A stretch of 48,685 nucleotides of DNA, from NCBI RefSeq assembly GCF_900114585.1, contig NZ_FOTL01000012.1, positions 1 to 48,685 of the forward strand. The letters are read 5' to 3'. Shown here piece after piece: positions 12,377 through 32,942 of the stretch. This stretch comes from Methanobrevibacter olleyae. GTDB taxonomy: Archaea; Methanobacteriota; Methanobacteria; Methanobacteriales; Methanobacteriaceae. The notes under the pieces were generated by a model that worked only from the letters and a program-made list of their open reading frames with translations, was not told the origin of the DNA and ran no database searches. Made by a program: the position numbers and the translations under genes. Each line of letters starts with the position of its first letter. Position 1 is the stretch's first letter.

Positions 12377-12419
12377 AGTAATTCCTCCAACTAAATAATA
12401 ATTATTATATCTATGAAAG

Positions 12420-13983: not shown

Positions 13984-15144
13984 TTACTCTTTTAATTGAG
14001 TCTTAATCACATACTTTAAAAGTAATTTCATAGAATACCAGTCTTTTCTATTAAATTGATTATTTAATATAGACTTAGAAACTCTATAAACTGTTTTTTT
14101 ACTTAATAAACCAACTCTATATTGATCTAAAAGATGGATAATTAAAGAAACATTTGCTACAAGTTCTGGATTTTTAGAAACTTTTACTAAAGATAAAATA
14201 AATTCTTTTTTCTCTTCTTCATTATCAATTCTTATATAATCTGTTAAATAATTGTTATAAAAATCATCTAATTGTAATTTAAATCTATCTAATCTAACTA
14301 GAGCATTTAATTGATAAGATGGAGTTAACCATTGTACTTTTGCTAAAGATTCTTTTATAGATTCAATAACAACTTTGGCAATAAGTTCACCTATTTTAGC
14401 ATGCTTACTAACATTTTCAATTGTATTTTCACTGTCTAAATTAGAAAATATAGCAATTCCATCAGTTCCTGTACCGGTAGCCACTTCTAGAGAATAATTA
14501 CTTGAAGCCATCAAATCCCTAAGTGCAACTGTTTTAGCTTCTATTGCAATCATTTCAGCTAAAAGTAGTGAACTTTCATCTAATTTAGAATTAATTAAAA
14601 CAATAATATTTATAGTTCCAAGTTTAATAGGGTTTTTATCCTCTAAATCATCTTTCTTATCATCATAATTATTTTCAGAACTAAGTTCACCAATATCCAA
14701 ATCATATTGTCCATTTATTTCATAATAAGAAGCTAAATCACCTGCAGAAACTGCATTTACTCTAACACCAGCAGTTGTAATAGCCACAACTTCAATATCC
14801 CGATACCTTTGGCAAGCTATTGCAAAATTTTCAATTTTTGCAGAGGTAATAAGCCCGCTTAACTTATTAGTTCGTAAATCAAGATTTTTATAAAAATCAC
14901 AAGACAAATCTTTTAAGAAGTCTAAAATGCCACTATCTTCATATTTATCAATATTCTCTTGAGATAATTGATGATTAAACACAGCAGCTAAATCTTCATT
15001 GTATCCTCCATTTAACCAAGAACTTACTATACCATTCTTTTTTGAAGCAAATTTAACAAGTAGGGTGTTAGAATTCTTTAATACTTCATCACCATCACTT
15101 GTTTTTTGTAATAATTTAAAATCTTTGTTTTGATTAAATGTCAT
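13984..15144 (-). CDS. cbiZ: Adenosylcobinamide amidohydrolase
   Basis: Hydrolyses adenosyl-pseudocobalamin or adenosylcobinamide to adenosylcobyric acid, letting the cell rebuild salvaged corrinoids into its own B12 form. Family motifs are clear: TTAGVRVNAVSAGD at about 123-136, a TINIIVLINSKLDESSLLLAEM stretch (given in part), EAKTVALRDL and ATGTGTDGIAIF. It is longer than a minimal CbiZ (386 aa); the last 110 residues are helical with no domain recognised. The start is ATG with GAGG 7 nt upstream. It lies downstream of the ECF transporter and near CbiO, which suits corrinoid uptake and salvage. Confidence 0.92.
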   Translation of the reverse strand: MTFNQNKDFKLLQKTSDGDEVLKNSNTLLVKFASKKNGIVSSWLNGGYNEDLAAVFNHQLSQENIDKYEDSGILDFLKDLSCDFYKNLDLRTNKLSGLITSAKIENFAIACQRYRDIEVVAITTAGVRVNAVSAGDLASYYEINGQYDLDIGELSSENNYDDKKDDLEDKNPIKLGTINIIVLINSKLDESSLLLAEMIAIEAKTVALRDLMASSNYSLEVATGTGTDGIAIFSNLDSENTIENVSKHAKIGELIAKVVIESIKESLAKVQWLTPSYQLNALVRLDRFKLQLDDFYNNYLTDYIRIDNEEEKKEFILSLVKVSKNPELVANVSLIIHLLDQYRVGLLSKKTVYRVSKSILNNQFNRKDWYSMKLLLKYVIKTQLKE

Positions 15145-16369: not shown

Positions 16370-17074
16370 TTAGTCAGAAAGGCTAATACTTTCACTTTCA
16401 GATGAATTACCAGATAAATATTTTACCTTTGCCCTAGTAAACATCTTTTTAAACCAGTCATACAATACTACTAAAAGTACTGCATTTGTTACACCATGAG
16501 TTAAATCATAGCTAAAACCATTGATATATAATGCAATTATTGGACTTATTTCTAAAGCTGTTCCAGAATAGAAGATTGCAGAAACATCTGTAATCCATCC
16601 ATATAATAATCCCCATAGCAATCCAAATACAATCCTGAAAGCTACATTATCAAATTTAGAAGCAAATAAACCTGCAGTTGCCCCCATAAGTCCCCATGCA
16701 AGCATCTGGAAGAGGACCCAATATCCCATTCCCATAAATAAACCTGATACTAATGCAGTTAAAGCACCTACTAAAAAGCCTTCTTCCTTAGAAAAAACAG
16801 CACCAACCATTATTATAATAAATGATGCCATATTTACAGCAGGAATTGACATAAGAATAAGACGCCCTACAACAGCAACAGCTGTTAAAACAGCGATCAA
16901 TACAATTGATTCAACTGTTGGCTTTTTTTGCTCATACATTTTAAATACTGCATAAATAAGTCCAGCAAGTAATAATATTAAGAAAATAACCATTGTAATT
17001 GTAAATATGGGGCCATTTACAAGTTCACTAGTACTTGCTGAGGCATTTGTTAACATTTCATCCATTGCACTCAT
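16370..17074 (-). CDS. ECF transporter S component (substrate-binding membrane protein)
   Basis: A 234-residue membrane protein with a first helix (about 25-45), a basic loop and then a block of about five helices typical of ECF S components, including IPAVNMASFIIIMVGAVF and NGFSYDLTHGVTNAVLLVVLYDW. S components bind a vitamin and dock on the EcfT/EcfA module. It is the last gene of a T, AA', S operon 73 bp after the ATPase gene. The substrate cannot be read directly; proximity to cbiZ makes a corrinoid plausible. I choose ATG 17074 for the start, with GTGTGTGAT just upstream. The Ser-rich tail ends abruptly at TAA and may be truncated. Confidence 0.82.
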   Translation of the reverse strand: MSAMDEMLTNASASTSELVNGPIFTITMVIFLILLLAGLIYAVFKMYEQKKPTVESIVLIAVLTAVAVVGRLILMSIPAVNMASFIIIMVGAVFSKEEGFLVGALTALVSGLFMGMGYWVLFQMLAWGLMGATAGLFASKFDNVAFRIVFGLLWGLLYGWITDVSAIFYSGTALEISPIIALYINGFSYDLTHGVTNAVLLVVLYDWFKKMFTRAKVKYLSGNSSESESISLSD

Positions 17075-17147
17075 TATCACACACTCTAAATAAATAACAT
17101 CTACAAAATATAATCTTTCTTATAAACATTTATAATCTTAAAAATAT

Positions 17148-19019
17148 CTATTTTAAATCCCATTTGGATTTTACATCATTAAAAGTAACTATTTCAGGAA
17201 TATATTCCTTAACCATCCTATTTGTAAAGGTAGTATAGAAGTTATTCTCTGCAAATATGACCTTAGGATCATCATCTATTTGAATATCCCTATCAAATAA
17301 CATCAAACAACGTTTACAATTATTAGCAACAAAATCTAAATCATGACTTGACATCAATATAGTTAATCCATTATCCCTTAAAGAATTTAAAATATCTGCA
17401 AGAGCCTTACTAGAGATTGGATCTAGACCTTTTGTAGGTTCATCTAATATTAGAACATCTGCATTTTGAAGTATTGCCTTAACGATCACTATCTTTTCTT
17501 GTTCTCCACCACTACAATCATAGGGATGCTTATTAATTAAATCAGAAATATCAAAGAATTCTATTAAATCTTTAAATTTAAACTTAGTATTATCAAATTC
17601 TAAACTATTTAAAATATCCGATTCAATAAATTCTTCATTAGAGAGTTTTAATAGTTTTTCATATTCCTCTTTATTAAAATTAATATTATTATTCCTATTA
17701 TCATTGCCTTTTTTATCATTTAATTTATTAAATAAATTAGATTCTATAATAGATTCTAGAAACTCCTCTTTTACATTATCTTTAGAAAAGTGAATCATAG
17801 GATTTTGATGAACATAAGCTAGTTTAATGCCTTTTTTGTACTTTAGCTTACCTTTAATTGGTTTTAACATCCCTACTAACAATTGTAAAAAGGTTGATTT
17901 ACCTACCCCATTTCCACCAATTAAACTTACAAATTCACCTTTATTTAAATCAAAGTCTAGATTTTTTAATATAAGGTGGTCTCTTTCATAAGCAAAGTAT
18001 ATTCCTTTCATTTTTACTAATACATCTTTATTCCTATTTAATGAAAGTTTATCTATAATAGCTATTTTTTCTTGAGAATGATATCTTTTACTGGATTGAG
18101 CTATATGATTAGAAACTAAATTATTAGAATAATCATCATCACCACTTATTTTAATTAAATCATCATGAATTGTATTAAGGCATCCCCTACCTTCACGAAT
18201 ACTTAAAGGAGTATTCAATTTAGATAAACTTGGATACTTTACTGATAATGAGTTATAAATTTTAGTAACAGTAGGAAGATAATTTTCAAATATATCATCA
18301 TCAACTACATCATCACAAATATCATGTGAATTACCATTAAATTCTATTCTGCCATTTTTTAAAAAAACTGCTTTATCTATGAATGGGAAGATACTGTCTG
18401 CTTTATGTTCACTCATAATAACAGTTATAGAAAATTCTTCATTTAACCTTCTAACTATTGATAAAAATTCATAAGAGGCAATCGGATCAAGTTGTGACAT
18501 TGGCTCATCAAGTAGAAGAACTTTAGGCCTTAAAACTAAAAGAGAACAAAGATTTACCAATTGTTTTTGTCCACCAGATAATTCATTTACATTTTTATGT
18601 AAAATTCCATTAATACCAAAGAAAGCTACTATTTCACTAATTCTATTTCTTATCTCTTCTGTTGGAAGAGCAATATTTTCTAATGGAAAAGCAATCTCCT
18701 GAATTACAGTATCTGTTACTATTTGACTATCTGGGTTTTGAAATAGATATCCAATATCACATCCAGAGGAGATATCATCTAAATCTTGTATTTTAACTCC
18801 ATTAAACTTAATTTCACCAGTTCTTACACCAGCAGGCATCAATTCTTTCTTAAGATTAGTTAGTAAAGTTGTTTTTCCACAAGCTGATGGCCCACATAAT
18901 AAAACAAAATCTCCATAGTTAATTTCAAGATTGATATTGTTTAAAGCTTTTGTTTGTGATTCAGACCCATCAGAATTAAGATATGAAAAGCTAAAATTAT
19001 TAAATTCAATTAATGCCAT
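17148..19019 (-). CDS. ECF transporter double ATPase (EcfA-EcfA' fusion)
   Basis: A single 623-residue chain with two ABC cassettes that power an ECF vitamin transporter. Cassette 1: Walker A GPSACGKT (43-50), Q-loop FQNPDSQ, signature LSGGQKQLV (147-155), Walker B VLLLDEP. Cassette 2: Walker A GGNGVGKST (368-376), Q-loop HQNP, signature CSGGEQEKI, Walker B VLILDEPTKGLDP and H-loop SSHDLD. A linker of about 100 residues joins them. Cassette 2 has an extra Asn/Asp/Lys-rich insertion after the Q-loop (about 425-490). The start has GGGAGA upstream. It lies between the T gene (52 bp) and the S gene, in one operon. Confidence 0.93.
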   Translation of the reverse strand: MALIEFNNFSFSYLNSDGSESQTKALNNINLEINYGDFVLLCGPSACGKTTLLTNLKKELMPAGVRTGEIKFNGVKIQDLDDISSGCDIGYLFQNPDSQIVTDTVIQEIAFPLENIALPTEEIRNRISEIVAFFGINGILHKNVNELSGGQKQLVNLCSLLVLRPKVLLLDEPMSQLDPIASYEFLSIVRRLNEEFSITVIMSEHKADSIFPFIDKAVFLKNGRIEFNGNSHDICDDVVDDDIFENYLPTVTKIYNSLSVKYPSLSKLNTPLSIREGRGCLNTIHDDLIKISGDDDYSNNLVSNHIAQSSKRYHSQEKIAIIDKLSLNRNKDVLVKMKGIYFAYERDHLILKNLDFDLNKGEFVSLIGGNGVGKSTFLQLLVGMLKPIKGKLKYKKGIKLAYVHQNPMIHFSKDNVKEEFLESIIESNLFNKLNDKKGNDNRNNNINFNKEEYEKLLKLSNEEFIESDILNSLEFDNTKFKFKDLIEFFDISDLINKHPYDCSGGEQEKIVIVKAILQNADVLILDEPTKGLDPISSKALADILNSLRDNGLTILMSSHDLDFVANNCKRCLMLFDRDIQIDDDPKVIFAENNFYTTFTNRMVKEYIPEIVTFNDVKSKWDLK

Positions 19020-19071: not shown

Positions 19072-20085
19072 TTAGAAATTAATGCCATATAAGATACGTT
19101 CCTTAATTTCTAGATAAATTAAAGGTAATAAAAATACTACAAATGATAAATAATAAATATTGAATGGTAAATTACTAAATGAAAAGTCAATAGATGGATA
19201 AATATTAATCATTCCCACTCCTTGAATTAATCCAACTATTATAATTGATACAGTAACTATAATTATTAATAAAAATAGATAATCTGCATTTGAAAACCTA
19301 TATGATAAATAGCTAGTTCTTTCAGTTACATTATAAGCTCTTGCTTTCATAGATTTAGCTGTAAACATAGATTCTTCTAAAGACCATGAAACAGTTATTC
19401 CCATTATCCTACCAAGTGTTTTTGCTTCTTTAATAATGGATGAAATTCTTTTATTTGATTTAAGTTTATTAATTAATTTAGAATTATAGTTAGTATTAAA
19501 ATTAGAGTTAAATTTATCTAAATCTATTTTTTCTAAATCATTGCCTTTTTCATCATTTTCACCTAATTCATAATCATCACCATCAAATTCAATTCCATTA
19601 TTTTTTAAACTATTTAACTTTTGAACTTCAATAGCTCTTGAATTGATTAATGGAATAAATCTTAAAGCCATAAGAATTATCATAGAAATAATTGGTAACT
19701 TTTTAGAAAAGATATAAAGCATTTCTTGGTAAGAAACTGATCTATTGTAAGATGCAAAGACTAAAATAACAATAAATAATGCTAAAGACATTAAAATACC
19801 ATAAGCAATAGCTTCATAAGTTAGAAAAAAATTAGACCCTAAATATATTTTATGAAATCCTGTTCTATTCAGTAAAGGATTCAATATTATTATTAAAATA
19901 CTTAGGGGAATAAAAAATTTCATCATATTTTTTAACTCAGAACTTATTCCTTGAAGACTAATTAAAATAATCATTAAAACTAAAAAAGTCAATACAAAGT
20001 AAGGGTCACTGAAAATAAACGCAAAGAGAACCATAATAAAATAATAAATCAAATAAACTCCTGGATGAATAGATGTAAGTTCCAT
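19072..20085 (-). CDS. ECF transporter T component (EcfT)
   Basis: The transmembrane coupling subunit of the ECF transporter, 337 aa. About four helices lie before residue 155, then comes a cytoplasmic domain ending in the conserved coupling motif SMKARAYN, followed by two or more C-terminal helices. The region about 160-215 is an acidic and Asn-rich insertion (GDDYELGENDEKGNDLEK) not usual for EcfT. I take ATG 20085 as start, since AGGGGA lies 7 nt upstream; an in-frame TTG at 20106 has no ribosome site. It is the first gene of the T, AA', S operon. Confidence 0.85.
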   Translation of the reverse strand: MELTSIHPGVYLIYYFIMVLFAFIFSDPYFVLTFLVLMIILISLQGISSELKNMMKFFIPLSILIIILNPLLNRTGFHKIYLGSNFFLTYEAIAYGILMSLALFIVILVFASYNRSVSYQEMLYIFSKKLPIISMIILMALRFIPLINSRAIEVQKLNSLKNNGIEFDGDDYELGENDEKGNDLEKIDLDKFNSNFNTNYNSKLINKLKSNKRISSIIKEAKTLGRIMGITVSWSLEESMFTAKSMKARAYNVTERTSYLSYRFSNADYLFLLIIIVTVSIIIVGLIQGVGMINIYPSIDFSFSNLPFNIYYLSFVVFLLPLIYLEIKERILYGINF

Positions 20086-20106
20086 AAATAGTTCCCCTAA
20101 TTTCAA

Positions 20107-20693: not shown

Positions 20694-23600
20694 TTATAAA
20701 TCCCTTTTAGAACGTTTAACAAGTTCTGAAGCACAAGCAAATATAAGCAATAATATTATAATAAGTACAGGAGCATTCATTCCACCTAAAGATAATGAAC
20801 GAACTGCAGCTGCTGGGTTTTCATCTAGATTTAGATTATAAGCAGTAGCTGATTCAGTTACTGGAGCAGATGATGAGGTACCTACAGTGTTTCCATCTAA
20901 AATAGTGGAATTAGAATAAACACTATTAGCCTTTAAATCAGAATGTTGACCAGAGCCATTATCCTTAGTAGCATTCCCATTTGTATTAGCTGAAGATGAA
21001 GGATCAGCTGATGGAAAACCATCAGAATGAGATCCACTTCCAGAGCTTGAGCCTCCAGAATCAGTTCCAGTTCCTCTACTAGATTCACCATTACTTGGAT
21101 CTCTCACATCATTTTTATAAAATATGTTATCTTTACCACCAATATCATCATATAATTGATTATTTGGAGTGATAACATCTGGATGACTTGTAGGTTCATA
21201 GTCAAGTAAATCTAATAAATTATAAACAGTACCATTTTTCCTAACTATCATAGGAGAATTTGGACTATCATACATTATATCTTTTTCAGTAAATACTATT
21301 TTAGAATTTGGATGTTTTAATTTCCATATTCTATTTATCTCTTTTATAATAGGAGAAATTAAAGGTTTTAAAGAAGGAAGGCTATTATTTATAACTTTAT
21401 TACCTTTAGAATTATACAATGCTATGCCTCTAACAACTAATGATTTATCACCATAATCAAAATAATTATCATAAATCTCACAATTATCAGAATCATAAGC
21501 TTCTAATAAATAATTAACTCTTGCATTGCAAAATATATTATTTTTATAAAACTTAGTATAATCAGCACCTTCTAAAATACCACCATAGGATACATTTCTA
21601 GCTATACACTTAATGTTATTTCTTGCTATTGTTGTATTAATAGAGTTATAACCTGCTATAATACCTGCAGAATAATAAGTTCCATTTACAACTATATTAT
21701 TATCAGTGAAACTATTATTAGCAGATATCTGATCTCTTTTACCAGTTTCAGCACCTAAAACTCCTAAACCATAAAGGTAAGGGTCTTTAGCTCTAATATT
21801 AACATTATTATGATGAACTTTATTATTGTTACTTCCATAATACAAATCGATACCAACAATAGAATTTGTAGATTCTTTAGAAGAATAATTATTAACACCA
21901 GAAGTGGCATTTATATTATTATACCCAATATCGTTAGAAGATGAATAGAATAAAATAATACCATAAGTTTTATAGACTTCTGGAATAACTATACCTTCTG
22001 CATAGTTATCATCAACACTGATAGAGCTATCTACCTTAATAGTTGAATCATAAAGATGAGCCTTTTTAGTACCATTAACAAAAACATTATTGTTTTTTAA
22101 TGTATTTTTATTAGAATCATAAAGTATGATTCCAAAAGTTAATGTATTAGCTTTAACTTTAATTGTGTTATTTAAAATATTACAGTTAGAAGATTCGGAT
22201 ATATAGATTCCATATCCATTATCAAAACTATTTAATTGAATTTTATTATTTATAATACTTACATATTTTACATTATCCAATAAAATAGCAAACCTATGGT
22301 TATCATCTGCATTATTAGGATTTGAATTAGTTATAGTAAATCCATCTACATAAACATTATCAGATTCAATTTTAATAACAGAATCTAATAACTTTGCAGA
22401 ATCAGACTTTAAATAAACTGGATGATTTAAAATAATTCTTTTATTGTTAAAATTACCTCTAAACACTAACTCATAGTCACTATAATCTGATTTTAGATAG
22501 GAATTTTCATCAAAGCAGGTATAGAAATTTCCCTCTGTAACAATGAATCGATTTCTTATAATATTGATTTTAGATGAAATTTCACAGGGATTATAATTAT
22601 CATTTCCTGCAAAACCTATATTCATTTCATAATTGCCGATATTTAGATTTAATCGTAATCTTGCCCTACCTTCTGAATCAGTAGTACTTATGTAATCTTT
22701 ATTCAATATATTAAAAATTACCCTTTCACCACCAATTGGATTTCCAATCCTATCTTTTAAGTAAACAAGAAAATCATTACCCTTAATAACATAACTACTT
22801 ACAATGCTAATTCTTGTATTGATTTTATCATCACTATATGTACCACTACCATTAGTTTCACTACCATTAGTACTTGTACCATTAGTAGTATTAGTAGTAC
22901 CGTTAGTATCATTAGTTGTATCGTTTCTTTCTATCTCTGAAGGATCTGTCATATTTACAATTAGACCATTAATGGTATTGTTATAAATAGCATTATGAGA
23001 TGGCATAATTGGATTTCTATTAGTATATTTTAATAGTGCAATAGCATCAGAGCCTCCAGATATATTAATTATATTATCACAAACTAATGAATAACTAACA
23101 TTACCTCTTAGTACAATAGCACTTTTATCAGTAGATATGTAGTTATTCTTAATAGTTATGTTTTCTGCAAGACGAGAGGTGAAAATCATTACTCCAGATG
23201 AATTTAATCCAATTAAAGTGTTATTTTCAATAATAACATTAGATTTTGTAGTGTTAATACAGTTTGCAGATTCACTATAAATTGTATTATCTATTATTTC
23301 TAAATTTACACCAGTGTTTAAAATTGAATCAGAACCAATGGATTTTAATGTATTGTTAACTATTGAATTATTTTTACCAGTATTTTTAATAGCTACAACA
23401 TTTCCATCATCATTCCAAGTATGAACATCTGTATATTCAGTAGAGATATTATTATTTGAAATTCTAATATTTTCTCCGCTAGTGAAAATAGCTGCAGGTC
23501 CACCAATGTTTGATATTGTATTATTGTATATCAAAGTATTTGAAGCATCAACAATTATTGCATAAAATGCATTTTCTATTGTATTATTTGCTATAACTCC

Positions 23601-24596
23601 ACCAGGCCCACTTGCAGATTGCATTAAATAAATTGCATAGCAATAAGAATTATAAGTACCATTTCTACTTTTAAGGTAATTATTTGCTATAATGTTTCCA
23701 CTACAAACTTCATCATCTATTGTCATGAAATCTCCATTACCATATGCAGATTGATAAATCATATTTGCCATTTCAGACTCAATGTAATTATCTCTTATTT
23801 CATTATATGATGAAGCTGTCATTGGAATAGTTGAGCTTTTGCCAGATAATATTCTGTTGTTGATAATTTTATTATAGCTTGCATTTGACATCATAACAGC
23901 AAAACATTTATAAAGACTGACATTAATGAGAGAGTTTGTAATTATGTTATTTGATGAGTTTATAATGCTTATACCAGATAAATAATATTTTGAACCAGTT
24001 ACCTTTTCTTTTGTATTAATAATACGAAGATTATTTAATACAGAACCAGAGCTTCCATCTATAAGACGTATTAAACAATTAGATAACATATCCTCATTAT
24101 CAGATACTATATTTAATCGTTTATTAATAGTAAAAACCTTATCAGAAATACTTTTGATTTTTATGGTATCCCCATCTTTAAGAGTACCTGATCTTATTAA
24201 TCCATCCTTTGATGAATCAAAGTAAGCTGAATAGCTTGAACTGTCAATTATGATTGGTTCTGAAGAGGAAACTATATTCTCTTCTAAGTTGGAAACTAAT
24301 GAACCTCTAAGTTTATTAGAATCCTTAGTCTTTGAATCACTAATTTCATCATCTGGATTATTTGAATAAGTGTTACCGTTTTCAAAATCATTTAAATTGT
24401 TTAAATCATCTGAATCACTAATCTCATCACTACAGTCATCATTACTGTTTAAATTATCAGAATCTGATATGCTAATTGAATTATCAAATACACCATCTGA
24501 TGAGTTAGTAAAGCCATCAATATTATCACTTGCACTAACTACACTTAAAGATAAAAATAATATCAATGCTAAAGCAATAAAGGAAGGCAATTTCAT
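20694..24596 (-). CDS. Adhesin-like surface protein with two beta-helix regions
   Basis: A 1300-residue secreted, membrane-anchored protein. Signal peptide 1-22 (LIL FLSLSVVSA), then an acidic Ser/Asp/Asn segment. Residues about 130-560 and 690-1080 are parallel beta-helix repeats (NosD/PbH1 type; recurring NxIxNNxI rungs such as IIENNTLIG and YNKIINNRIL). Between them, about 590-670, lies an Ig-like (Big_3-type) domain with the DSEGRARLRL turn. A Gly/Ser/Asn stalk (about 1160-1260) leads to a TM helix APVLIIILLLIFACA and a basic tail. Adhesin-like proteins of this kind are expanded in Methanobrevibacter. GGAGGTGA lies upstream but 13 nt from ATG. Confidence 0.85.
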   Translation of the reverse strand: MKLPSFIALALILFLSLSVVSASDNIDGFTNSSDGVFDNSISISDSDNLNSNDDCSDEISDSDDLNNLNDFENGNTYSNNPDDEISDSKTKDSNKLRGSLVSNLEENIVSSSEPIIIDSSSYSAYFDSSKDGLIRSGTLKDGDTIKIKSISDKVFTINKRLNIVSDNEDMLSNCLIRLIDGSSGSVLNNLRIINTKEKVTGSKYYLSGISIINSSNNIITNSLINVSLYKCFAVMMSNASYNKIINNRILSGKSSTIPMTASSYNEIRDNYIESEMANMIYQSAYGNGDFMTIDDEVCSGNIIANNYLKSRNGTYNSYCYAIYLMQSASGPGGVIANNTIENAFYAIIVDASNTLIYNNTISNIGGPAAIFTSGENIRISNNNISTEYTDVHTWNDDGNVVAIKNTGKNNSIVNNTLKSIGSDSILNTGVNLEIIDNTIYSESANCINTTKSNVIIENNTLIGLNSSGVMIFTSRLAENITIKNNYISTDKSAIVLRGNVSYSLVCDNIINISGGSDAIALLKYTNRNPIMPSHNAIYNNTINGLIVNMTDPSEIERNDTTNDTNGTTNTTNGTSTNGSETNGSGTYSDDKINTRISIVSSYVIKGNDFLVYLKDRIGNPIGGERVIFNILNKDYISTTDSEGRARLRLNLNIGNYEMNIGFAGNDNYNPCEISSKINIIRNRFIVTEGNFYTCFDENSYLKSDYSDYELVFRGNFNNKRIILNHPVYLKSDSAKLLDSVIKIESDNVYVDGFTITNSNPNNADDNHRFAILLDNVKYVSIINNKIQLNSFDNGYGIYISESSNCNILNNTIKVKANTLTFGIILYDSNKNTLKNNNVFVNGTKKAHLYDSTIKVDSSISVDDNYAEGIVIPEVYKTYGIILFYSSSNDIGYNNINATSGVNNYSSKESTNSIVGIDLYYGSNNNKVHHNNVNIRAKDPYLYGLGVLGAETGKRDQISANNSFTDNNIVVNGTYYSAGIIAGYNSINTTIARNNIKCIARNVSYGGILEGADYTKFYKNNIFCNARVNYLLEAYDSDNCEIYDNYFDYGDKSLVVRGIALYNSKGNKVINNSLPSLKPLISPIIKEINRIWKLKHPNSKIVFTEKDIMYDSPNSPMIVRKNGTVYNLLDLLDYEPTSHPDVITPNNQLYDDIGGKDNIFYKNDVRDPSNGESSRGTGTDSGGSSSGSGSHSDGFPSADPSSSANTNGNATKDNGSGQHSDLKANSVYSNSTILDGNTVGTSSSAPVTESATAYNLNLDENPAAAVRSLSLGGMNAPVLIIILLLIFACASELVKRSKRDL

Positions 24597-24665: not shown

Positions 24666-24747
24666 ATCCAAATAAATTGAAAAAATATAAAATAGAATTA
24701 AATTCTAATTGATAAAAATATAAAATAAGATTTAAAAAAAATAGAAA

Positions 24748-25157
24748 AAAATAAAAAATAAAGAAAAAAGAAAAAAATAGTTAATATTTAGACATAAAAT
24801 CTAAAACTGCATCAGATAATACGTCTAAATTAGATAAATACTCTTCATACCATCTATTTCTAAGTTTAGAAACAATATAAGCTACTGCACCAGATCCAAT
24901 ACCTACAACAGTTGTATCAAATGCAACTATCAAAGATTGGGATAATGTATTTACATCCCCTGAACCAAGTGCTGCAAGACCAGTACCTAATGAAATTAAA
25001 GTACCCATCAAACCAAGAGTTGGTCCAATACGAGTGATGATATCAGTAATTTCAAGAGATTTATCTGTTAAATTTTCCTCATTTTCAATTAATTTACAGG
25101 CAAAAGCTTCTCTTGAGTTAAGAGATAAATTCTCAGTACTTGCTATTTTAACCAAAA
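24748..25157. repeat. Direct repeat copy A (about 410 bp)
   Basis: Matches 29685-30098 with roughly eight substitutions by eye (about 98% identity), covering the 3' flank and the last 124 codons of the ExbB-like gene. Both copies have the same orientation. Confidence 0.9.
24781..25157 (-). pseudogene. Truncated second copy of the ExbB/TolQ-like gene
   Basis: Encodes only the last 124 residues of the 215-residue protein at 29718-30365, from [12 protein letters not shown] to the end. The N-terminal membrane helix is missing. The sole possible start is a TTG that is an internal Leu codon in the full copy, without a ribosome site. It differs from the intact protein by few residues, including Arg to Cys in EAFACKL and Pro to Ser in LISLGTGL. 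It is therefore a recent partial duplicate, probably non-functional. Confidence 0.8.
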
Positions 25158-25164
25158 GATTTAA

Positions 25165-25434
25165 TTAAAATATATTAAAAATTAAATTAAGATACTCACC
25201 TAAATAAATTATAAATAGGCCAATAATTGCTTTAGCCAGATTCTTTAAATTGCTGGGTTTATTGAATTTATAATATAAGTAAATTGTTAGAACAATTAAA
25301 CATATGCTTAATAATATAGTAATTTGAAGCATATGAATAGGAATACCCATTTGAAAATATATAATTAAAGGAGGTATTAAAAAAACCATTAAAGCTAAAG
25401 TAGATAAAATGTTTTCAATATTAGATACATTCAT
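25165..25434 (-). CDS. Small three-helix membrane protein of unknown function
   Basis: 89 residues beginning MNVSNIENILSTLALM, with three hydrophobic segments (about 10-30, 36-54, 65-85) and a short basic loop KFNKPSNLKN. No family recognised. The start is ATG 25434 with GTGTGATT upstream; an earlier in-frame ATG at 25446 lacks a site. It ends 8 bp before the junction with the truncated ExbB copy, so the pair could look like a chimeric locus. It may be the end of another lost operon gene. Confidence 0.5.
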   Translation of the reverse strand: MNVSNIENILSTLALMVFLIPPLIIYFQMGIPIHMLQITILLSICLIVLTIYLYYKFNKPSNLKNLAKAIIGLFIIYLGEYLNLIFNIF

Positions 25435-25697
25435 AAAATCACACATTCATATTTATATTAAAATATTAGAATTCTAATCCAAAAAGGCATTATAGATTTT
25501 TTAATCAATGCAAAAATAAATTAAAAAATCCAGTTTAGTTTTTATAATATTGTAATTAATTTTTAAAAATATTCACATTAAAATTAAATATAAATTTTTT
25601 CTTAAAATTTAAAAATTATTATAATCATAAAATAATATTAAATATGTCAATTCCACTTTAAATACACATATCTTACTAGAATCTTAAGTATCCAAGA

Positions 25698-28600
25698 CTA
25701 AAAATAATTATAAGTTTCTTCAACAGTCATGTTTCTCTTACCTTTTTCACCATCAATATAAATAGCAGAAGACCTATCAAGTTCAGTAGTTCCTTGTTTA
25801 TATTTTACTTCAATATAATCATAATGAGTAGGTGACTTAGGAATAACAATCACTCTACCCTCCCAAAATGCAACATCATGTAATCCAATATAATTCCACT
25901 TATCATCAGATAAAAATTTATTTCTAAAACATATAATCATCTTACCCTCAGAGGTTAAAATAGTCCCTATAGAAATAAGAATACCACCTCCAAGAGTAGC
26001 AGGAATACTTGAAAAACCTATGGCTAAACTTCCTAAAGATAGTCCTATTTCAGTTATCCCTGGCGAATGATAACAAGTAAAATTCCATAAATCAGATAAA
26101 ATTGTTTTAATAGTACCAAAATGTATGGATTTAGAACATAATTCAGACCCAAGAATACTTTGAAGTTTATAAATCAAATTATTTGTTAAATTATCATGAA
26201 AACAAAAAGTATCATCATTAGAAAGAACACCTTTATATTCAAAATCATTTTCAATAATATATTCACGAACAATTCCACTATCTGAATCAAAAGATAAAGA
26301 AATATTTTCTAATTCTGGAACAGTTATAACAACATGGTTATTTTTTTGATCAAAAACAAAACCATAACCATCCAAAATAGCATCAATAACATTTGCACCA
26401 GATTTGTTTATAGATGCTCCAGATAATCTTAAAGACATAGTTTCCAATTCAGATAAATAACTTGAACAATAAAAATTAAAAAATTTTATATTGTCCTCTT
26501 TTCCAATAACATCCATACCCATACTTGCATCTGGACAATGAATAAAAACTCTGCCTATCTGAGATATTCCTGAAAATAAAGTTAAAAAAGTACTACGATT
26601 CCAAGTAACATTAAATAATTCACTTCCCTCATTAGCTAGAGAGTCACTAAACCAAATAGTAGACAGAGCAGATAAAAAAGTACCATAAGCTGCTTTATTA
26701 CCTCCAACTGTAAAAGAACTATTTTTAGATAACCAATAATCAATATCACCATAATCAATAGGTTTATTTACTATAGCAAAACTATGAATTAAATCAAACC
26801 CACTATCAGACTCAAAACCATAATTTAGTTCTTCATTCTTTTTAATTGTACTATTATTACATGAGAATACTGTTCTAATAATTTCATTACTCCATGAACT
26901 AGAAATGAAATCCCCTGAAAAAATTATACTCATAGTTTCAATACCATTTAATAAAAAAGAAACTTTCTTATAAAAATATTCCCCTCCGTAGTTATAAACA
27001 ACACTAAACTGATTAACATTTAAATCAGCATTATCATAGTAAGTAAAATGAATATAATCCTCAGAATCAACATATAAAAGAATACCTGAACAATTAGGAT
27101 TAAAATTATAAATATCTCCATAATTGCCATTAAATCGAGTTTCTGATTGATAACCTAAATATCCTAATGGAATAAAGAAATAAGATCCATAATGACAGAA
27201 TTCTTGTGGCGTTTCAGCTCCAGATTCATAAAAATAACTACTATTTAGTGTATTAATCATAATTTGTCTATAAAAAGGCCACGAATTACTTAAACTAAAT
27301 TCATAATAAAAATTAGGTTTTAAAGACTTTACAACAAAATTACTACAATGTAGTGAACTATTGAAATTATTTAAAGAAGAGTAATATAAAATACTCCAAT
27401 TACCTTCAGTTAAATTAATATTAACAGAAGATATACCATTATACCAAATTGATCCATTATCAAAACTATAATAAATTATAGCATTATTTGAACTAGTTGA
27501 TAAATTAATTAATAAATTTTCACAATGATAAATCCCATCATTTCTATTAGAAAATACATTAGGAGAATTTACAATAATATTAACAGTTGTATTAAATCCA
27601 TTATAAAAATCATCCCCTTTAAAATCAATTGTTGTAGAATAAAAACCTGGAGAACAATTAATTGGTAAAAACACATTTCCAAAATTATCAGTAGTGGCAC
27701 TATAAGAATTATTACCAATGAAAAAAGTAATACTTCTATTAACCAAACTCTTATGTTTGATATCTTCCAAGCGAGCATATAACAAATTATTATCACCATA
27801 ATTCTTTACTAAATTATTAGCAATAATATTAGTATCAACTTTGCTTATCTTAATCTGAGTCCTTTCAGTAGAATTTAAATAAATATTATCCCCTAAAAAC
27901 TTTACAGAACAATAATAATCACCAGGTTTTAATATAGGTAATGAAAAAGTAGCAATTCCCTCATAATTAGTTGTTAAATTATAATTAACATTATTAATTT
28001 CTAAAATTACAACTTTATCACTAATACTATCCCCATATCTGTCCTTTAATAAAACAACCAATTTATTATCATAATCTATCACAGAATCTAATACAACAAG
28101 ATTAGTATCCAGTTTATTAACAGTAACAGTTACTGTTTTACTTGAAGAAGTATTTATCCTATCACCAGCAAACTTAACTAGACAAGAATAAGAGCCTGGA
28201 TTTAACTTAGGCAAAGATAAACTAGCCTTACCACTCGAATCAGTAGTACGAGAATAAGTAACCCCATTTATTAGAAAACTAATTGATTTTCCCTTAATAG
28301 ATTTACTACTACTATTTTGCAAAGTAGCAACTAAGTTAACGGAATCATTATAATAACAAACTAAATTATTTGCAAGTAATTTAGTATTCCACTTTTTAAC
28401 AGTGATAGTTACTGTTTTACTTGATGCTGCATAAGTAGAAGTTCCTGCAAACTTAACAAGACAAGAATAAGTGCCAGGATACAAAGTAATACCCTTAGTA
28501 ACACCCAAAACTACTTTTCCATTAGAATCAGAAGTACGATTATAAATTTTACCATTAACTTTAAAAGTAATTTTCAATCCTTTTATAGGCTTATTAGAGC

Positions 28601-29072
28601 TAGTTTTTATATAAGCAACTAACTTGCTGCCATCATAATAATTCATATTCAAATTAGAAGCAACAACCTTTGTTTTAGTCTTAGTAGATTTAGTAGTAAC
28701 AGAACTTCTATCATTAACAAGAGAAGGACTATTCACAAACTGAGTATCAATACCAAAACTATTAACAGAACTATTTGAATCAACATTAGAAATTAAACAT
28801 TCCCCATCATTGAGATTGTTATTTGCCTCAACCTTATTTTTTGAATAAAATTTTTCATTAGACTCTTGATTAACAAGCCTAATATTTTCATTGTTATCAA
28901 TTTCTAAAGAATTAGAACTTCCAGTAGATGGCAAATTAGAATTTAAATATCCACTAATATGCTTATTTTCAGCACCATCAATCGCAAAAACAGAATTTAA
29001 ACAACATAAACATAAAAACAAAACTAAAACTAAAACTAAAATTTTATTTATAAAATTATTACTAATCTTCAT
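25698..29072 (-). CDS. Adhesin-like protein with Ig-like repeats and a large conserved C-terminal region
   Basis: A 1124-residue secreted protein. The signal peptide is about 1-30 (ILVLVLVLFLCLCCLNSVFA). Residues about 110-475 hold four Ig-like (Big_3-type) repeats with the same turn (SNGKVVL, SSGKASL, YEGIATF, NFGNVFL) and YSCLVKFAG strands. Residues about 480-560 resemble a chitobiase C-terminal/FN3-like module (YYSFDNGSIWY). From about 590 a long unrecognised region includes GGNKAAYGTFLSALSTIWF and MGMDVIGKEDNIKFFNF, and a hydrophobic glycine-rich segment near 1010-1040. The tail is not a simple TM anchor. The start is ATG 29072. It lies downstream of the ExbB-like operon on the same strand. 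Confidence 0.78.
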   Translation of the reverse strand: MKISNNFINKILVLVLVLFLCLCCLNSVFAIDGAENKHISGYLNSNLPSTGSSNSLEIDNNENIRLVNQESNEKFYSKNKVEANNNLNDGECLISNVDSNSSVNSFGIDTQFVNSPSLVNDRSSVTTKSTKTKTKVVASNLNMNYYDGSKLVAYIKTSSNKPIKGLKITFKVNGKIYNRTSDSNGKVVLGVTKGITLYPGTYSCLVKFAGTSTYAASSKTVTITVKKWNTKLLANNLVCYYNDSVNLVATLQNSSSKSIKGKSISFLINGVTYSRTTDSSGKASLSLPKLNPGSYSCLVKFAGDRINTSSSKTVTVTVNKLDTNLVVLDSVIDYDNKLVVLLKDRYGDSISDKVVILEINNVNYNLTTNYEGIATFSLPILKPGDYYCSVKFLGDNIYLNSTERTQIKISKVDTNIIANNLVKNYGDNNLLYARLEDIKHKSLVNRSITFFIGNNSYSATTDNFGNVFLPINCSPGFYSTTIDFKGDDFYNGFNTTVNIIVNSPNVFSNRNDGIYHCENLLINLSTSSNNAIIYYSFDNGSIWYNGISSVNINLTEGNWSILYYSSLNNFNSSLHCSNFVVKSLKPNFYYEFSLSNSWPFYRQIMINTLNSSYFYESGAETPQEFCHYGSYFFIPLGYLGYQSETRFNGNYGDIYNFNPNCSGILLYVDSEDYIHFTYYDNADLNVNQFSVVYNYGGEYFYKKVSFLLNGIETMSIIFSGDFISSSWSNEIIRTVFSCNNSTIKKNEELNYGFESDSGFDLIHSFAIVNKPIDYGDIDYWLSKNSSFTVGGNKAAYGTFLSALSTIWFSDSLANEGSELFNVTWNRSTFLTLFSGISQIGRVFIHCPDASMGMDVIGKEDNIKFFNFYCSSYLSELETMSLRLSGASINKSGANVIDAILDGYGFVFDQKNNHVVITVPELENISLSFDSDSGIVREYIIENDFEYKGVLSNDDTFCFHDNLTNNLIYKLQSILGSELCSKSIHFGTIKTILSDLWNFTCYHSPGITEIGLSLGSLAIGFSSIPATLGGGILISIGTILTSEGKMIICFRNKFLSDDKWNYIGLHDVAFWEGRVIVIPKSPTHYDYIEVKYKQGTTELDRSSAIYIDGEKGKRNMTVEETYNYF

Positions 29073-29081
29073 ATAAACCAC

Positions 29082-29596
29082 AAAAAGAAACTAATATAAT
29101 TTTAGTATGGAAAACATATTAAATTAAAAGACAATCTTAAAACCATTATTTAGAATATGATAAAATTTTAATAAATTTTCAAAAGACTAAAATTTTTGAT
29201 GAATAAAATATTAACATAACATATATAGAATTCTCTATAATTAATATTATAAAAACATTACTATTGAACAAAAAAATATTATTATCATTAAAATTAATTA
29301 AAAAATGAACTATTTTTATTTATTTTACTATTTTCTAAAAAATATTTTTTTTAAAAAAAATATATAAAAATATTTTAATAATTCTTAAACAATATTTAAT
29401 ATTTTCCTATTTTTTTAATAAATTAAAATACAATTTTATTAAATAACTTTTAAAAAAAATAGTATACCATAAAAACACATATTTAATTTAAATAAATTAT
29501 AATATATTAAGTTATAATTTAAAAGAAGAATGATTAATTCAAAAATAAAAATAAACCAATTAGACAAATTTAAAAAAAAGGACTGTAAAATTTTTA
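29082..29596. other. Long AT-rich gap 5' of the 1124-residue adhesin
   Basis: About 515 bp with very low GC, 5' of the adhesin and 3' of the ExbB-like gene. No ORF with coding character is seen; poly-A/T runs dominate. Confidence 0.5.
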
Positions 29597-29672
29597 TAGG
29601 CTTAAATTTATTTTTAATTATTTTATTTATAAATAAATGAGTAAATTTTTATTTTTAAGCCTAAACCTTTTT
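29597..29672 (-). terminator. Inverted repeat 3' of the ExbB-like gene
   Basis: TAGGCTTAAA (29597-29606) pairs with TTTAAGCCTA (29663-29672), with an additional flanking GTAAAA/TTTTAC pair further out. The interior is A/T-rich and could fold further. It is placed just after the copy-B repeat and the end of the ExbB-like gene, so a 3'-end hairpin is likely. Confidence 0.45.
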
Positions 29673-29684
29673 ACAAGCTCAAAA

Positions 29685-30098
29685 AAAATAAAAAATAAAG
29701 AAAAAAGAAAAAAATAGTTAATATTTAGACATAAAATCTAAAACAGCATCAGATAATACGTCTAAATTAGATAAATACTCTTCATACCATCTATTTCTAA
29801 GTTTAGAAACAATATAAGCCACTGCACCAGATCCAATACCTACAACAGTTGTATCAAATGCAACAATCAAAGATTGGGATAATGTATTTACATCCCCTGA
29901 ACCAAGTGCTGCAAGACCAGTACCTAATGGAATTAAAGTACCCATCAAGCCCAGAGTTGGTCCAATACGAGTGATGATATCAGTAATTTCAAGAGATTTA
30001 TCTGTTAAATTTTCCTCATTTTCAATTAATTTACGGGCAAAAGCTTCTCTTGAATTAAGAGATAAATTCTCAGTACTTGCTATTTTAACCAAAAGAGT
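29685..30098. repeat. Direct repeat copy B (about 410 bp)
   Basis: The intact partner of 24748-25157; homology ends inside the gene at the codons TLLVKIAS. The two copies bracket the adhesin and the 89-residue gene, with a spacing of about 4.94 kb. Confidence 0.9.
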
Positions 30099-30365
30099 CC
30101 TTTGAGTTTGTGGAAGTGGGGAGTTATTAATTTTAGATTTTAAGGAATCAAGAGAGTCTGAATTATTAATATCTAAAATTAAATTAGAAACATCAGCAAC
30201 AGAAACCTTTGCTCTTGAGGTATATTCATAAATAAGCCCTCCTAATGAGACCACCACAACAACTACAAAAATTAATAATATAATAACTACTGGTATTAAA
30301 AGACTTTGTGAAATTAAATTAAGTCCAGTGGTTAAAAAATCACCACCAGGAATTGTCATTACCAT
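29718..30365 (-). CDS. MotA/TolQ/ExbB-type proton channel protein
   Basis: A 215-residue membrane protein. The first helix is at about 20-45 (LLIPVVIILLIFVVVVVVSLG, 20 residues shown at most elsewhere), then a cytoplasmic helical segment and two helices with the family motif [22 protein letters not shown], in which the Thr/Pro pattern lines the ion path, and [17 protein letters not shown]. ExbB-type channels couple proton flow to mechanical work on a partner. It is third in the order DUF2149, multi-TM protein, ExbB. I choose ATG 30365 for the start, 5 nt after GGTGA. Its 3' part is duplicated at 24781. Confidence 0.9.
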   Translation of the reverse strand: MVMTIPGGDFLTTGLNLISQSLLIPVVIILLIFVVVVVVSLGGLIYEYTSRAKVSVADVSNLILDINNSDSLDSLKSKINNSPLPQTQRTLLVKIASTENLSLNSREAFARKLIENEENLTDKSLEITDIITRIGPTLGLMGTLIPLGTGLAALGSGDVNTLSQSLIVAFDTTVVGIGSGAVAYIVSKLRNRWYEEYLSNLDVLSDAVLDFMSKY

Positions 30366-30477
30366 CATAATCACCTATAAACATAAAATATAACCAAATA
30401 ATAAATAATATTTAATTTTAATTTTAATTTTAAAGAGTTAAAATCAAAACTTAAATTTCTAAATAAAATGAAATAAA

Positions 30478-31209
30478 CTATTCAAGCCTATTATTTCTTT
30501 TTTTAAATAATACTCCAATACCAAGGAAAATAACTAGTAAAACTAAAAAAGCTATCCCTGAGCTAATTGGCATTAAACTTAATTCTGTAGATGGATTTTT
30601 AACTACCTCAGAAATTGTTGGAATTAAAAATCCAAATACAATAAATAAAAATCCAAAGATTAGCATCATACTTCCATAAATAATTGGATAGTGAGCTATA
30701 CGATAATCTTCAATGAAATCTGAGAATGTATAAGTTACAATACTTATAAATATTAATAATACTGCTATAACAATAGCTAAATGAATTGTTGTGATAGTTA
30801 AGCTTAAATTAGCTGAATCAAATATAAAACTTGGAGCTAAAGCTGCAGAAGATAATATAAATAACCCATAAGATACTGGTATAAAATCTAAATATAATAA
30901 TCCCTTTAAGATGCTATCATATTGTTTTTCTCTTTCCCAATGATAAATAGTAAATATTCCTAAAATTAATGAAATAAATGCCATCACCATATAGAAATAA
31001 AAATTGTTAACTGTTAAACTAATTAGAGCATTATAAAATGGACTTAAAACAATAATTATTAAAGCAATGATTAGAGAAAAAACAGCCGTTATTACAGCAT
31101 GCTTCACTAAATCATATTTAAAAAATTTAGATAATAGTCCAGTTCCAATTCCAACTAGTAAAACTGCAGCTAGAATAATTATACCAAACAAACTAACTAA
31201 TAAATTCAT
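30478..31209 (-). CDS. Seven-helix membrane protein (DUF2162-like), ExbB operon
   Basis: A 243-residue integral membrane protein with about seven hydrophobic helices separated by short loops, and a tail KKRNNRLE. It resembles the DUF2162 family of predicted membrane transporters found beside DUF2149 and ExbB genes in methanogens; that family name is a recollection, not a search result. No catalytic motif is seen. The start is ATG with GTGAT 5 nt upstream. It lies between DUF2149 (78 bp) and the ExbB-like gene (112 bp), all on one strand, and is likely cotranscribed. Confidence 0.68.
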   Translation of the reverse strand: MNLLVSLFGIIILAAVLLVGIGTGLLSKFFKYDLVKHAVITAVFSLIIALIIIVLSPFYNALISLTVNNFYFYMVMAFISLILGIFTIYHWEREKQYDSILKGLLYLDFIPVSYGLFILSSAALAPSFIFDSANLSLTITTIHLAIVIAVLLIFISIVTYTFSDFIEDYRIAHYPIIYGSMMLIFGFLFIVFGFLIPTISEVVKNPSTELSLMPISSGIAFLVLLVIFLGIGVLFKKRNNRLE

Positions 31210-31287
31210 TATATCACAATATTTACAAAAGATTTATTTTAAAAAAAGAAATATTCGAAAAACTAATGAATAAAAAGATAAATAATA

Positions 31288-31620
31288 TCATCCTTCTACC
31301 ATAATCAGATTACCTGTTTTCGAATCTTTATAAACTTTTCCTTGTTCTACATAACCTTCTCCAGAGCTATTTGAAGTATCTGGAGTTTCATTTAATTGTT
31401 CACCCTGTGTAACATTAGTGATTTCACTAATAGACTCAATAGCTGCTTGCCTATCTTCAGGAGACATGTCACTAAAAATAACACTTTGTAAATTCCAGCC
31501 GATAACTGCAAAAATTAGAAATCCAAGAGCAAGAACTAACATAGCATCAACAAGATTTGTTGTTCCAGCCATAGGATCTTCTTCCTGACGTGAACGGCTT
31601 CTAGATTTCTTTCTAACCAT
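31288..31620 (-). CDS. DUF2149 protein (ExbD/TolR-like partner)
   Basis: 110 residues with a basic N-terminus (RKKSRSRSRQ), one membrane helix (about 23-45, VDAMLVLALGFLIFAVIGW) and an outside acidic domain ending KVYKDSKTGNLIMVEG. This single-helix design with an Asp (LVDAML) at the helix start parallels ExbD/TolR/MotB, which form the stator with ExbB-type channels. DUF2149 is the archaeal family I recall for it. It is the first gene of the operon, with GAAGGTT upstream of ATG. Confidence 0.8.
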   Translation of the reverse strand: MVRKKSRSRSRQEEDPMAGTTNLVDAMLVLALGFLIFAVIGWNLQSVIFSDMSPEDRQAAIESISEITNVTQGEQLNETPDTSNSSGEGYVEQGKVYKDSKTGNLIMVEG

Positions 31621-31811: not shown

Positions 31812-32942
31812 TTATTTATCATCTAATATATAATCTAAAATAACTTTAGATGAATTTGGTTTAAAATCACCAAACTGTAATTTGAAAAAATCCTCTAATT
31901 TTTCTAAATTAAAATCTTCTTCTTTTATTATCTCAATTAATTCTTCAGTAGTAAAAACTATCTTACCTGGAACTTTTTCTTTGTAGTCAAAGTAAAAACC
32001 ACGTTCTTTATTAAGATAATCATCTAAATCATAAGCAAACAGTACAATTGGTTTTTTTAAAATAGTATAATCAACCATAATAGAAGAATAATCTGTAATT
32101 AAAATATTAGACAATAATAAAAGTTTTTGTTCATCTTTAAACTCTGTAAAATTAATTATATCATATTTATTTGATAAATCATCTAAATCAATTCTATGTT
32201 CCTCATCACAATATTTTAGATAGTTAGGATGTAATCTTATAGCTAAAAGATATTCATCACCTAATTCATTAATGAATTTTTCTATATTAAAATAATCAAA
32301 AACAGCATTGTTTTTAGTATCTTCTCTAAAAGTAGGAGCATAAAGAACTAATTTTTTGCCCTTTAGTTGAGGATAGTCTTTTTCAAAGGATTCCCTTAAT
32401 TCCTTTAAATAGTTACTGTCTAAATGTTGCTTAGTATAAAAATCATTACGAGGTATACCAAAAGGAAGAACTTTTGATTTATCTAGAAAAAAATTATGTG
32501 CATAAATATCAATTACATTTTCACTACTAACAGATACTAAATCTATTTTATTTGAAAACATTTCCATAACTTTCTTTTCTTCATGATTTAAAAGATCATA
32601 ACCAAATTTCTTAAATATACCTGTACCATGCCATAATTGCACCCATTTCATCCCATCAACATCCATAAAAGCAAGTGGGAAGAAATTATCAACTAAAAAG
32701 ACATACTTTGATGATGCAAAATCATAAATATTTTTTAAAGACAAAGAATCTTTTAAAATGAAATTATATTCATAATCTTTTCCATCCTTTGTTTTTCTAA
32801 TATCTAATTCTCTTGCAATATATTCTAAATTACTTTCAAATGAGTGGTTTTTATTTGTTAAAAGACTTATTTTATTATTCTTTTGAGGAAATTTCCTAAA
32901 TAAGTTAAAAATCATAGCATAAATCTTATGTTTAGTATACAC
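31812..32942 (-). CDS. CDP-glycerol glycerophosphotransferase family protein (TagF/TagB-like)
   Basis: A 376-residue GT-B enzyme of the family that adds glycerol- or ribitol-phosphate units in teichoic-acid-like polymers. Visible are the acceptor/donor motif VQLWHGTGIFKKFGYD (~88-103), FGIPRNDF, VLYAPTFRED, and the conserved TDYSSIMVDYTILKKPIVLF block. A short hydrophobic N-terminus may attach it to the membrane. It starts at GTG 32942 with GGAG 9 nt upstream. In a methanogen it probably modifies an envelope polysaccharide; the product is not known. It is divergently oriented to pyrF. Confidence 0.87.
   Translation of the reverse strand: MYTKHKIYAMIFNLFRKFPQKNNKISLLTNKNHSFESNLEYIARELDIRKTKDGKDYEYNFILKDSLSLKNIYDFASSKYVFLVDNFFPLAFMDVDGMKWVQLWHGTGIFKKFGYDLLNHEEKKVMEMFSNKIDLVSVSSENVIDIYAHNFFLDKSKVLPFGIPRNDFYTKQHLDSNYLKELRESFEKDYPQLKGKKLVLYAPTFREDTKNNAVFDYFNIEKFINELGDEYLLAIRLHPNYLKYCDEEHRIDLDDLSNKYDIINFTEFKDEQKLLLLSNILITDYSSIMVDYTILKKPIVLFAYDLDDYLNKERGFYFDYKEKVPGKIVFTTEELIEIIKEEDFNLEKLEDFFKLQFGDFKPNSSKVILDYILDDK

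Follow-up and report, generated by a model that had tools for sequence, protein, structure and literature searches.

ExbB-type channels are generally seen as driving work at the outer membrane: proteins of this family form a ring channel, with an aspartate-bearing partner as the stator, and their role in cells that have no outer membrane, such as the Methanobacteriales, is an open question. The closest described system is the Hmu haem system of Bacteroidota. In one account HmuV and HmuU are proposed to act with the outer-membrane receptor HmuR, and archaeal CobN-like proteins are called unclear in function (PMC12583661, EMBO J 2025); in another, HmuV is said to be without homology to known families and CobN operons to be without Hmu homologues (PMC13227078). 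In the open-licence literature we found no paper that links DUF2149, DUF2162 or ExbB to archaeal CobN or beta-helix proteins.

Here we analyze a stretch of 48,685 nucleotides from the gut methanogen Methanobrevibacter olleyae (assembly GCF_900114585.1, contig NZ_FOTL01000012.1; hereafter the window), the minus strand of which encodes a DUF2149 protein, a DUF2162 protein and an ExbB-type channel, in that order. Our preferred reading, to which we give a probability of about 0.5, is that they form an HmuTUV-like energised module acting on C-terminally anchored surface proteins, that its client in the window is a large beta-helix protein encoded downstream, and that the substrate is then imported by an energy-coupling factor (ECF) transporter. 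The kinship of the module with HmuTUV is well supported; the client, its coupling to the module and the substrate are what we infer.

Module genes and their conserved neighbours

The initial annotation of this DNA, made without database searches, had described an operon of DUF2149, seven-helix and ExbB genes, and these proved to be real, with matches to PF09919, PF09930 and PF01618 (Table 1). They are closely set, the two gaps being 78 and 103 bp. As looked for in a TonB/ExbB/ExbD-like pair, an aspartate is present in the transmembrane (TM) helix of DUF2149, the partner of ExbB; N22, D25, M27 and V29 are invariant in 20 of 20 aligned sequences, and D25 is also invariant in an alignment of 29.

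DUF2149 was found in 18 of the 19 genomes surveyed in the genus, at 63 places, and all 63 neighbourhoods were fetched (loci and genomes carry our labels L and G); the gene-order table holds 61 of them, L084 and L086 having been dropped for a broken or cut DUF2149 open reading frame (ORF). Orthologues of the window locus in other genomes, defined by the glycerophosphotransferase-like gene together with the order DUF2149-DUF2162-ExbB, number 12, and with the window ExbB theirs form a single group in the ExbB tree (support 97). In eight of them (L064, L067-L072, L074) a beta-helix protein of 1,272-1,308 amino acids, with a signal peptide and a C-terminal helix, begins 162-371 bp after exbB, and none of these eight loci has an adhesin, a 93-residue ORF or a second exbB in between. 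This surface protein (24596..20694 in the window), a conserved neighbour in related species, had been missed in the initial annotation, as had a truncated second exbB (25155..24781).

The beta-helix gene is in turn followed by an ECF trio in eight of the nine loci in which a further gene is visible (the window, L064, L067, L070, L071, L088-L090), and CbiZ was seen in all four beta-helix loci with room for it. Four genomes do not have the beta-helix gene at the ExbB locus; in three of them it lies elsewhere (L088-L090), still with ECF and CbiZ. In L110, from another genus, the ECF trio stands immediately after DUF2149. Since the trio and CbiZ accompany the beta-helix gene, cofactor uptake is indicated, and CbiZ points to corrinoids; the role of the window module is thus probably the capture of a cofactor, which may be a corrinoid.

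Paralogous loci and the ExbB tree

The M. olleyae genome has five DUF2149 loci, the window and four others. In L007 a CobN with a signal peptide and a C-terminal helix, the best PDB match of which is the haem dechelatase HmuS (2e-90), precedes DUF2162-ExbB-DUF2149. The same three genes are preceded in L008 by CbiM and a membrane protein of 169 amino acids, and in L009 by an anchored beta-helix protein of 707 amino acids, with fdhC and fdhA after them, while in L006 an anchored and a second beta-helix protein are followed by ExbB-DUF2149 at the contig end. FecBCD-like importers, called by size, number of TM helices and ATP-binding cassette (ABC) match, flank the module in other genera (L115, L118). 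Membership of a known cobalt or nickel chelatase system had been named in the initial annotation as an outcome that would speak against its proposal, and this is in part what we find, the module being kin to a CobN/HmuS-type, CbiM-linked metal-tetrapyrrole system. Across the genus loci, a C-terminal helix is present in 38 of 68 secreted proteins of at least 300 amino acids encoded within two genes of the module on its strand, and in 5 of 44 elsewhere, counts that come from related genomes and are not independent.

In a tree of 97 ExbB rows the sequences group by client class, with 15 changes where shuffling gives 66.5 on average; the labels were given partly by orthology, and the 19 rows labelled "other" are included here and were excluded from a first count of 8. 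The window class, two other beta-helix classes and a SocA-linked class are each recovered as a single group, with support of 97-100. Rows of CobN type are spread over the tree (6 changes), the basal methanogen rows among them, and the tree fits a scenario in which CobN would be the older client of the module.

Several other arrangements were seen among these loci. One module class with an anchored beta-helix protein is kept directly upstream of fdhC-fdhA (formate dehydrogenase) in L009, L077, L080, L083 and L173, and a SocA/Panacea-like gene of about 170 codons lies immediately upstream of DUF2162-ExbB-DUF2149 in L033, L034, L043, L047 and L055. Two DUF2149 copies about 3.5 kb apart in G063 (contig C29, 45114 and 48569) represent a tandem duplication of the module, and the CobN adjoining the module is split into two ORFs in L031 and L155, possibly by a frameshift or a sequencing error.

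A common C-terminal anchor element

The last ~54 residues of the neighbouring surface proteins can be aligned across unrelated outer domains (CobN, beta-helix, PKD/PQQ); the alignment (A3) used 37 of 38 rows, L174 being left out. The box in these tails is K[AS]YE[VIL], which reads AYNL in the window protein; a spacer of 15-20 residues leads from there to a helix, after which come GY and a charged tail. Within the genus, 43 of 66 strong matches to the anchor profile lie within 12 kb of DUF2149, and many of the others are at contig ends. In a set of 16 closed genomes of one or two contigs (threshold E<=1e-5) there are 87 anchor matches, of which 42 are in CobN ORFs and 23 within 12 kb of DUF2149, 10 being both. 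An anchor lies within 12 kb of 19 of the 31 DUF2149 loci in these genomes (random mean 1.66, maximum 7 in 2,000 draws), and CobN within the same distance of 13 of the 31, in 13 of the 16 genomes (random mean 1.03). A known sorting signal was also considered for this element and rejected: at E values up to 10, none of the NCBIfam sorting models matched the eight anchor-protein queries with confidence, the one weak match being to GG_III-CTERM (9.1 against a cut-off of 22).

Bacterial relatives

DUF2149 was matched in 11 of 72,556 plasmid records. CobN is close by in 10 of them; the remaining record, from Paracoccus, has a weak match over half the length, with no gene there. On Trichlorobacter lovleyi pGLOV01 a TonB receptor gene is followed by DUF2162, ExbB, DUF2149 and CobN and, after these, by a second and separate set of ExbB, ExbD and TonB; cobamide and CbiMNQ genes surround the cluster. 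Because of this separate set the DUF2149-linked ExbB is unlikely to be the only energiser of the receptor. In Bacteroides and Prevotella the order is hmuY, receptor, CobN, membrane protein, ExbB, DUF2149. The Bacteroides HmuV also matches PF09919 (2e-34); PF09930 finds the Trichlorobacter protein (1.5e-63) and gives no match for HmuT of Bacteroides, Prevotella or Aureibacter, the position and size of which agree. Among nine CobNs beside DUF2149, six pass the C-terminal helix cut of 1.6 and the other three score 1.60 (rounded), 1.57 and 1.26, whereas a C-terminal TM helix is present in none of five control CobNs beside cob genes. Ahead of the helix, six of the nine tails have a box [VI]xGxx[ML] (shuffled mean 0.10), the bacterial form of the juxtamembrane box seen in the archaeal anchored CobNs and beta-helix proteins.

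A Runella plasmid (L286, 1-12598) carries CobN-ExbB-DUF2149 and a NicO/DsbD-like protein among hypF and hypCDE, a setting that suggests a nickel-related role there.

Proposed mechanism

In the mechanism that we propose, ExbB would form the ring channel and DUF2149, with its intramembrane aspartate, the central stator-like subunit, DUF2162 being a permease or an accessory protein. Ion flow would move the presumed ExbB-DUF2149 complex, and the force would pass to a single-pass surface protein through its C-terminal anchor with the juxtamembrane box, as gene neighbourhood and common tail suggest, and there bring about a change of conformation, or a release, in the outer domain. The ancestral client would have been of CobN/HmuS type, and that of the window would be the 1,300-residue beta-helix protein (24596..20694). 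The substrate freed at the membrane, most likely a corrinoid or else another metal-tetrapyrrole or metal complex, would enter through the downstream ECF transporter and then be remodelled by CbiZ.

A broader and more tentative proposal, which we rate clearly below the preferred reading for the window, is that there is a cross-domain class of ExbB-type motors for which a short juxtamembrane box is the direct point of action on extracellular proteins with a C-terminal anchor. The HmuS/CobN metal-tetrapyrrole (de)chelatase would be the ancestral client of this class; in methanogens with a cell wall the motor would have increased in copy number and taken on beta-helix surface proteins as clients, so as to capture cofactors through pseudomurein, and HmuU/HmuV would power HmuS, not the outer-membrane receptor. 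The comparison offers a testable answer to the question of what ExbB-type channels do in cells without an outer membrane, namely that they may directly drive membrane-anchored outer proteins. It bears on HmuU/HmuV, assigned in print to a TonB receptor, and on the archaeal CobN paralogues, and the juxtamembrane box allows a one-motif experiment.

A duplicated exbB end and a probably inserted adhesin

In the window, exbB and the beta-helix gene are separated by a stretch of 4.5 kb that is flanked by the duplicated 3' end of exbB and holds a Big-domain adhesin and a 93-residue ORF; the latter has no homologue in any other fetched locus. As the beta-helix gene directly follows exbB, without an adhesin, in 8 of the 12 orthologous loci, the adhesin is read as an insertion. 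Adhesin and small ORF look like newcomers between exbB and the beta-helix gene, outside the system, and the position behind exbB may be one at which surface-protein genes tend to land. The exbBs of relatives are ~77-87% identical to either window copy, so the duplication is recent unless the assembly is a chimera of strains. In the second copy residues 1-94 are missing and there are two substitutions, R114C and P149S, P149 being invariant in 27 aligned ExbBs; judging from these changes, it is probably dead.

The initial annotation had regarded the adhesin as the partner of the module and had pointed to its conserved C-terminal region. The motif it quoted, GGNKAAYGTFLSALSTIWF, is located in the adhesin, and the conservation is confirmed by relatives in 82 of 138 family genomes. 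The window copy of this domain has no Pfam match and no NCBIfam match even at E 10, and a C-terminal anchor was not found on the adhesin. Membership of the operon did not hold up: the gap between exbB and the adhesin is AT-rich, with a T-tract immediately after the exbB stop, and measures 636 bp, as against 78-103 bp between module genes. The survey of DUF2149/adhesin co-occurrence proposed at the time found the adhesin C-terminal domain in 0 of 80 DUF2149 loci (ORFs of loci from the genome-contig scan), within 12 kb of DUF2149 at 0 of 20 places in seven closed genomes, and between exbB and its neighbour in 0 of the eight orthologous loci where both are visible. On these surveys the adhesin was rejected as a partner of the module.

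The C-terminal domain (window 25698-27404) often occurs as one ORF of ~970-1,000 amino acids per genome. A further adhesin-like ORF, of 725 amino acids, lies at 40406-42583 of the window and has divergent tandem repeats of ~75 bp (40896-41514).

Alternative explanations

Several observations weigh against the preferred reading. The beta-helix gene is not beside exbB in 4 of the 12 orthologous loci: its place is taken in L063, L065 and L066 by a channel-like ORF on the opposite strand, and in L073 exbB is followed by a different adhesin-like ORF that seems to be frameshifted. The ECF importer of the window is matched for its S component and two ABC domains and assigned for its T component by position alone, and in L074 the client is followed by another beta-helix gene, not by ECF. 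The predicted DUF2162 model (predicted local distance difference test, pLDDT, 79.8) has no clear fold match, the best Foldseek E being 0.27 and the best VIA-align Z 7.7 over 150 residues, half-major-facilitator-like and no higher than is common for helical models. Homology of DUF2149 to ExbD was not recovered against the ExbD of the same genome (hhalign probability 1.1%, E 0.048, 26 columns), ExbD is absent among the PDB matches of DUF2149, and the DUF2149 model (pLDDT 61.6; TM helix, second helix, C-terminal hairpin) is too weak to use. Twelve of the 31 closed-genome DUF2149 loci have no anchor within 12 kb. The box motif of the bacterial CobN tails was picked after inspecting them; the Aureibacter tail is without it, and Cupriavidus has an anchored CobN with the box and no DUF2149 match in its record. 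Finally, physical contact, the driving of the client and the ECF substrate are proposed here from gene order and sequence.

It is possible that the YE[VIL] box and C-terminal helix serve Methanobacteriota surface proteins in general, as a signal for membrane anchoring or sorting and nothing more, and that ExbB-DUF2149 energises DUF2162 or CobN chemistry alone, neighbouring proteins sharing the locus for functional reasons without being moved. Since 32 of the 87 closed-genome anchors are neither in CobN nor near the module, this explanation keeps about a third of the weight, and it would also suit G070, with 8 anchors and 1 DUF2149, and G047, with 12 and 2. The same count led us to give up an early view of the anchor as restricted to module loci; with 19 of 31 loci having one nearby, it is strongly associated with the module, not confined to it. 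A purely generic signal is harder to reconcile with that excess over the 1.7 loci expected, with a box in bacterial CobNs beside DUF2149 and the lack of a C-terminal helix in those beside cob genes, and with several loci that are without DUF2162 and still hold anchor, ExbB and DUF2149. Rather improbable, in our judgement, is a TonB-like role of the kind printed for Bacteroidota HmuU/HmuV-HmuR, in which the archaeal modules would be receptor energisers adapted to some partner in the wall. The model of the EMBO J 2025 paper (PMC12583661) speaks for it. Against it are the absence of an outer membrane from Methanobacteriales and the full ExbB-ExbD-TonB set of Trichlorobacter beside DUF2162-ExbB-DUF2149-CobN; we came across no TonB-type partner in the archaeal loci, where no search was aimed at one.

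Two further explanations concern the inserted stretch. That the module drives assembly, movement or export of the wall-bound adhesin, as first proposed, is very unlikely: the two adjoin on the same strand in the window, and L073 likewise has an adhesin-like, apparently broken ORF after exbB, but the surveys of loci and closed genomes were negative and the adhesin lies, unanchored, between duplicated ends. That proposal holds up in its more general form, as an energised surface system that may serve uptake through pseudomurein, with the anchored beta-helix protein as partner in place of the adhesin. Duplication and insertion might also be an assembly chimera of two strains, given a single draft assembly of 49 contigs in which the window is one entire contig, two exbB copies differing at 8 of 415 bases and an inserted stretch not seen in relatives. 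We consider this unlikely, as the left edge of the exbB copy joins unique sequence, not a shared k-mer, and the copy is changed at an invariant residue, as expected for a decaying duplicate.

Features of the window

Table 1. Features of the module locus in the window
Feature	Coordinates	Strand	Evidence or remark
CbiZ, adenosylcobinamide amidohydrolase (corrinoid salvage)	13984..15144	-	PF01955 9e-49
ECF S component	16370..17080	-	PF07155 1.4e-11
Double ABC ATPase (EcfA-A' like)	17148..19019	-	PF00005 6.7e-51, two stretches
Membrane protein in EcfT position	19072..20106	-	Position only, no Pfam match; 6 predicted TM helices in orthologues
1,300-residue right-handed beta-helix surface protein, signal peptide and C-terminal TM helix, proposed client	20694..24596	-	PF13229 9e-13
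Anchor element of beta-helix protein (AYNL box, R-S, TM helix, basic tail)	20697..20864	-	Tail alignment
Second exbB 3'-end copy (truncated ORF 25155..24781)	24745..25159	-	407/415 identity (98%)
93-residue ORF, three predicted TM segments, in inserted stretch	25165..25446	-	ORF list
Big_3_5/Big_1 adhesin	25698..29081 (ATG at 29072)	-	Pfam; within inserted stretch
415-bp exbB 3' end and T-tract, reference copy	29682..30096	-	407/415 identical to 24745-25159
MotA_ExbB channel (ExbB/TolQ/MotA-type, HmuU-like)	29718..30374	-	PF01618 1.5e-10, above cut-off
DUF2162, 7-TM predicted transporter, in HmuT position	30478..31209	-	PF09930 2e-27
DUF2149 protein, HmuV-like, one TM helix	31288..31620	-	PF09919 4.4e-19; possible ExbD-like stator
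CDP-glycerol glycerophosphotransferase-like gene, syntenic marker of the locus	31812..32942	-	PF04464 7e-63

Beside CbiZ, at 11540-13716, the window encodes an ABC ATPase (12544..11540) and a secreted protein of 364 amino acids with a C-terminal helix (13716..12622), which has no relative among the fetched loci. An Rfam scan of the window gave no match to a riboswitch or other RNA. Elsewhere in the same genome (L010, contig C2, 836-2094) there is a separate canonical ExbB-ExbD pair, in an archaeon without an outer membrane.

Comparison with known systems

Adhesin-like proteins with a C-terminal TM helix, 14 in number, have been reported for M. ruminantium M1 (PMC2812497); they are likewise large and secreted and represent the pool from which clients would come, although no link to ExbB is seen in the available part of that paper. 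With TonB-ExbB-ExbD, TolQRA and MotAB the module shares a MotA_ExbB channel and a one-helix partner with an aspartate near the start of the helix; the proposed archaeal client is anchored C-terminally, not N-terminally, and DUF2149 and ExbD are not recognizably related by hhalign. A CobN/CobST cobaltochelatase differs in that CobN is absent at the window locus and that the CobNs beside DUF2149 are mostly anchored, unlike all five beside cob genes. Trichlorobacter lovleyi pGLOV01 has the three module genes in one run and an anchored CobN with a related box and a TM-GF tail, and differs in its TonB receptors and separate ExbB-ExbD-TonB set.

From the Hmu haem system of Bacteroidota the window locus differs in several respects. 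HmuY, HmuR and the outer membrane are absent on the archaeal side, neither the HmuY haemophore nor the TonB-dependent receptor HmuR being found among the window proteins scanned by Pfam; the same scan found no CobN-type HmuS at the window locus, where a beta-helix protein stands in place of CobN and the order is DUF2149-DUF2162-ExbB, and the archaeal DUF2162 family is not matched by Bacteroidota HmuT in Pfam. Both systems have the pair of an ExbB-family channel and DUF2149, a membrane protein of ~230 amino acids at the place of HmuT, and a client, on the archaeal side a proposed one, that has a membrane helix at each terminus, and L007 of M. olleyae, which does have a CobN of HmuS type, keeps the HmuS order, CobN (DUF2162) ExbB DUF2149 corresponding to hmuSTUV. 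A gut methanogen with a cell wall thus holds several copies of an apparently ion-driven membrane module related to the haem module of gut Bacteroides.

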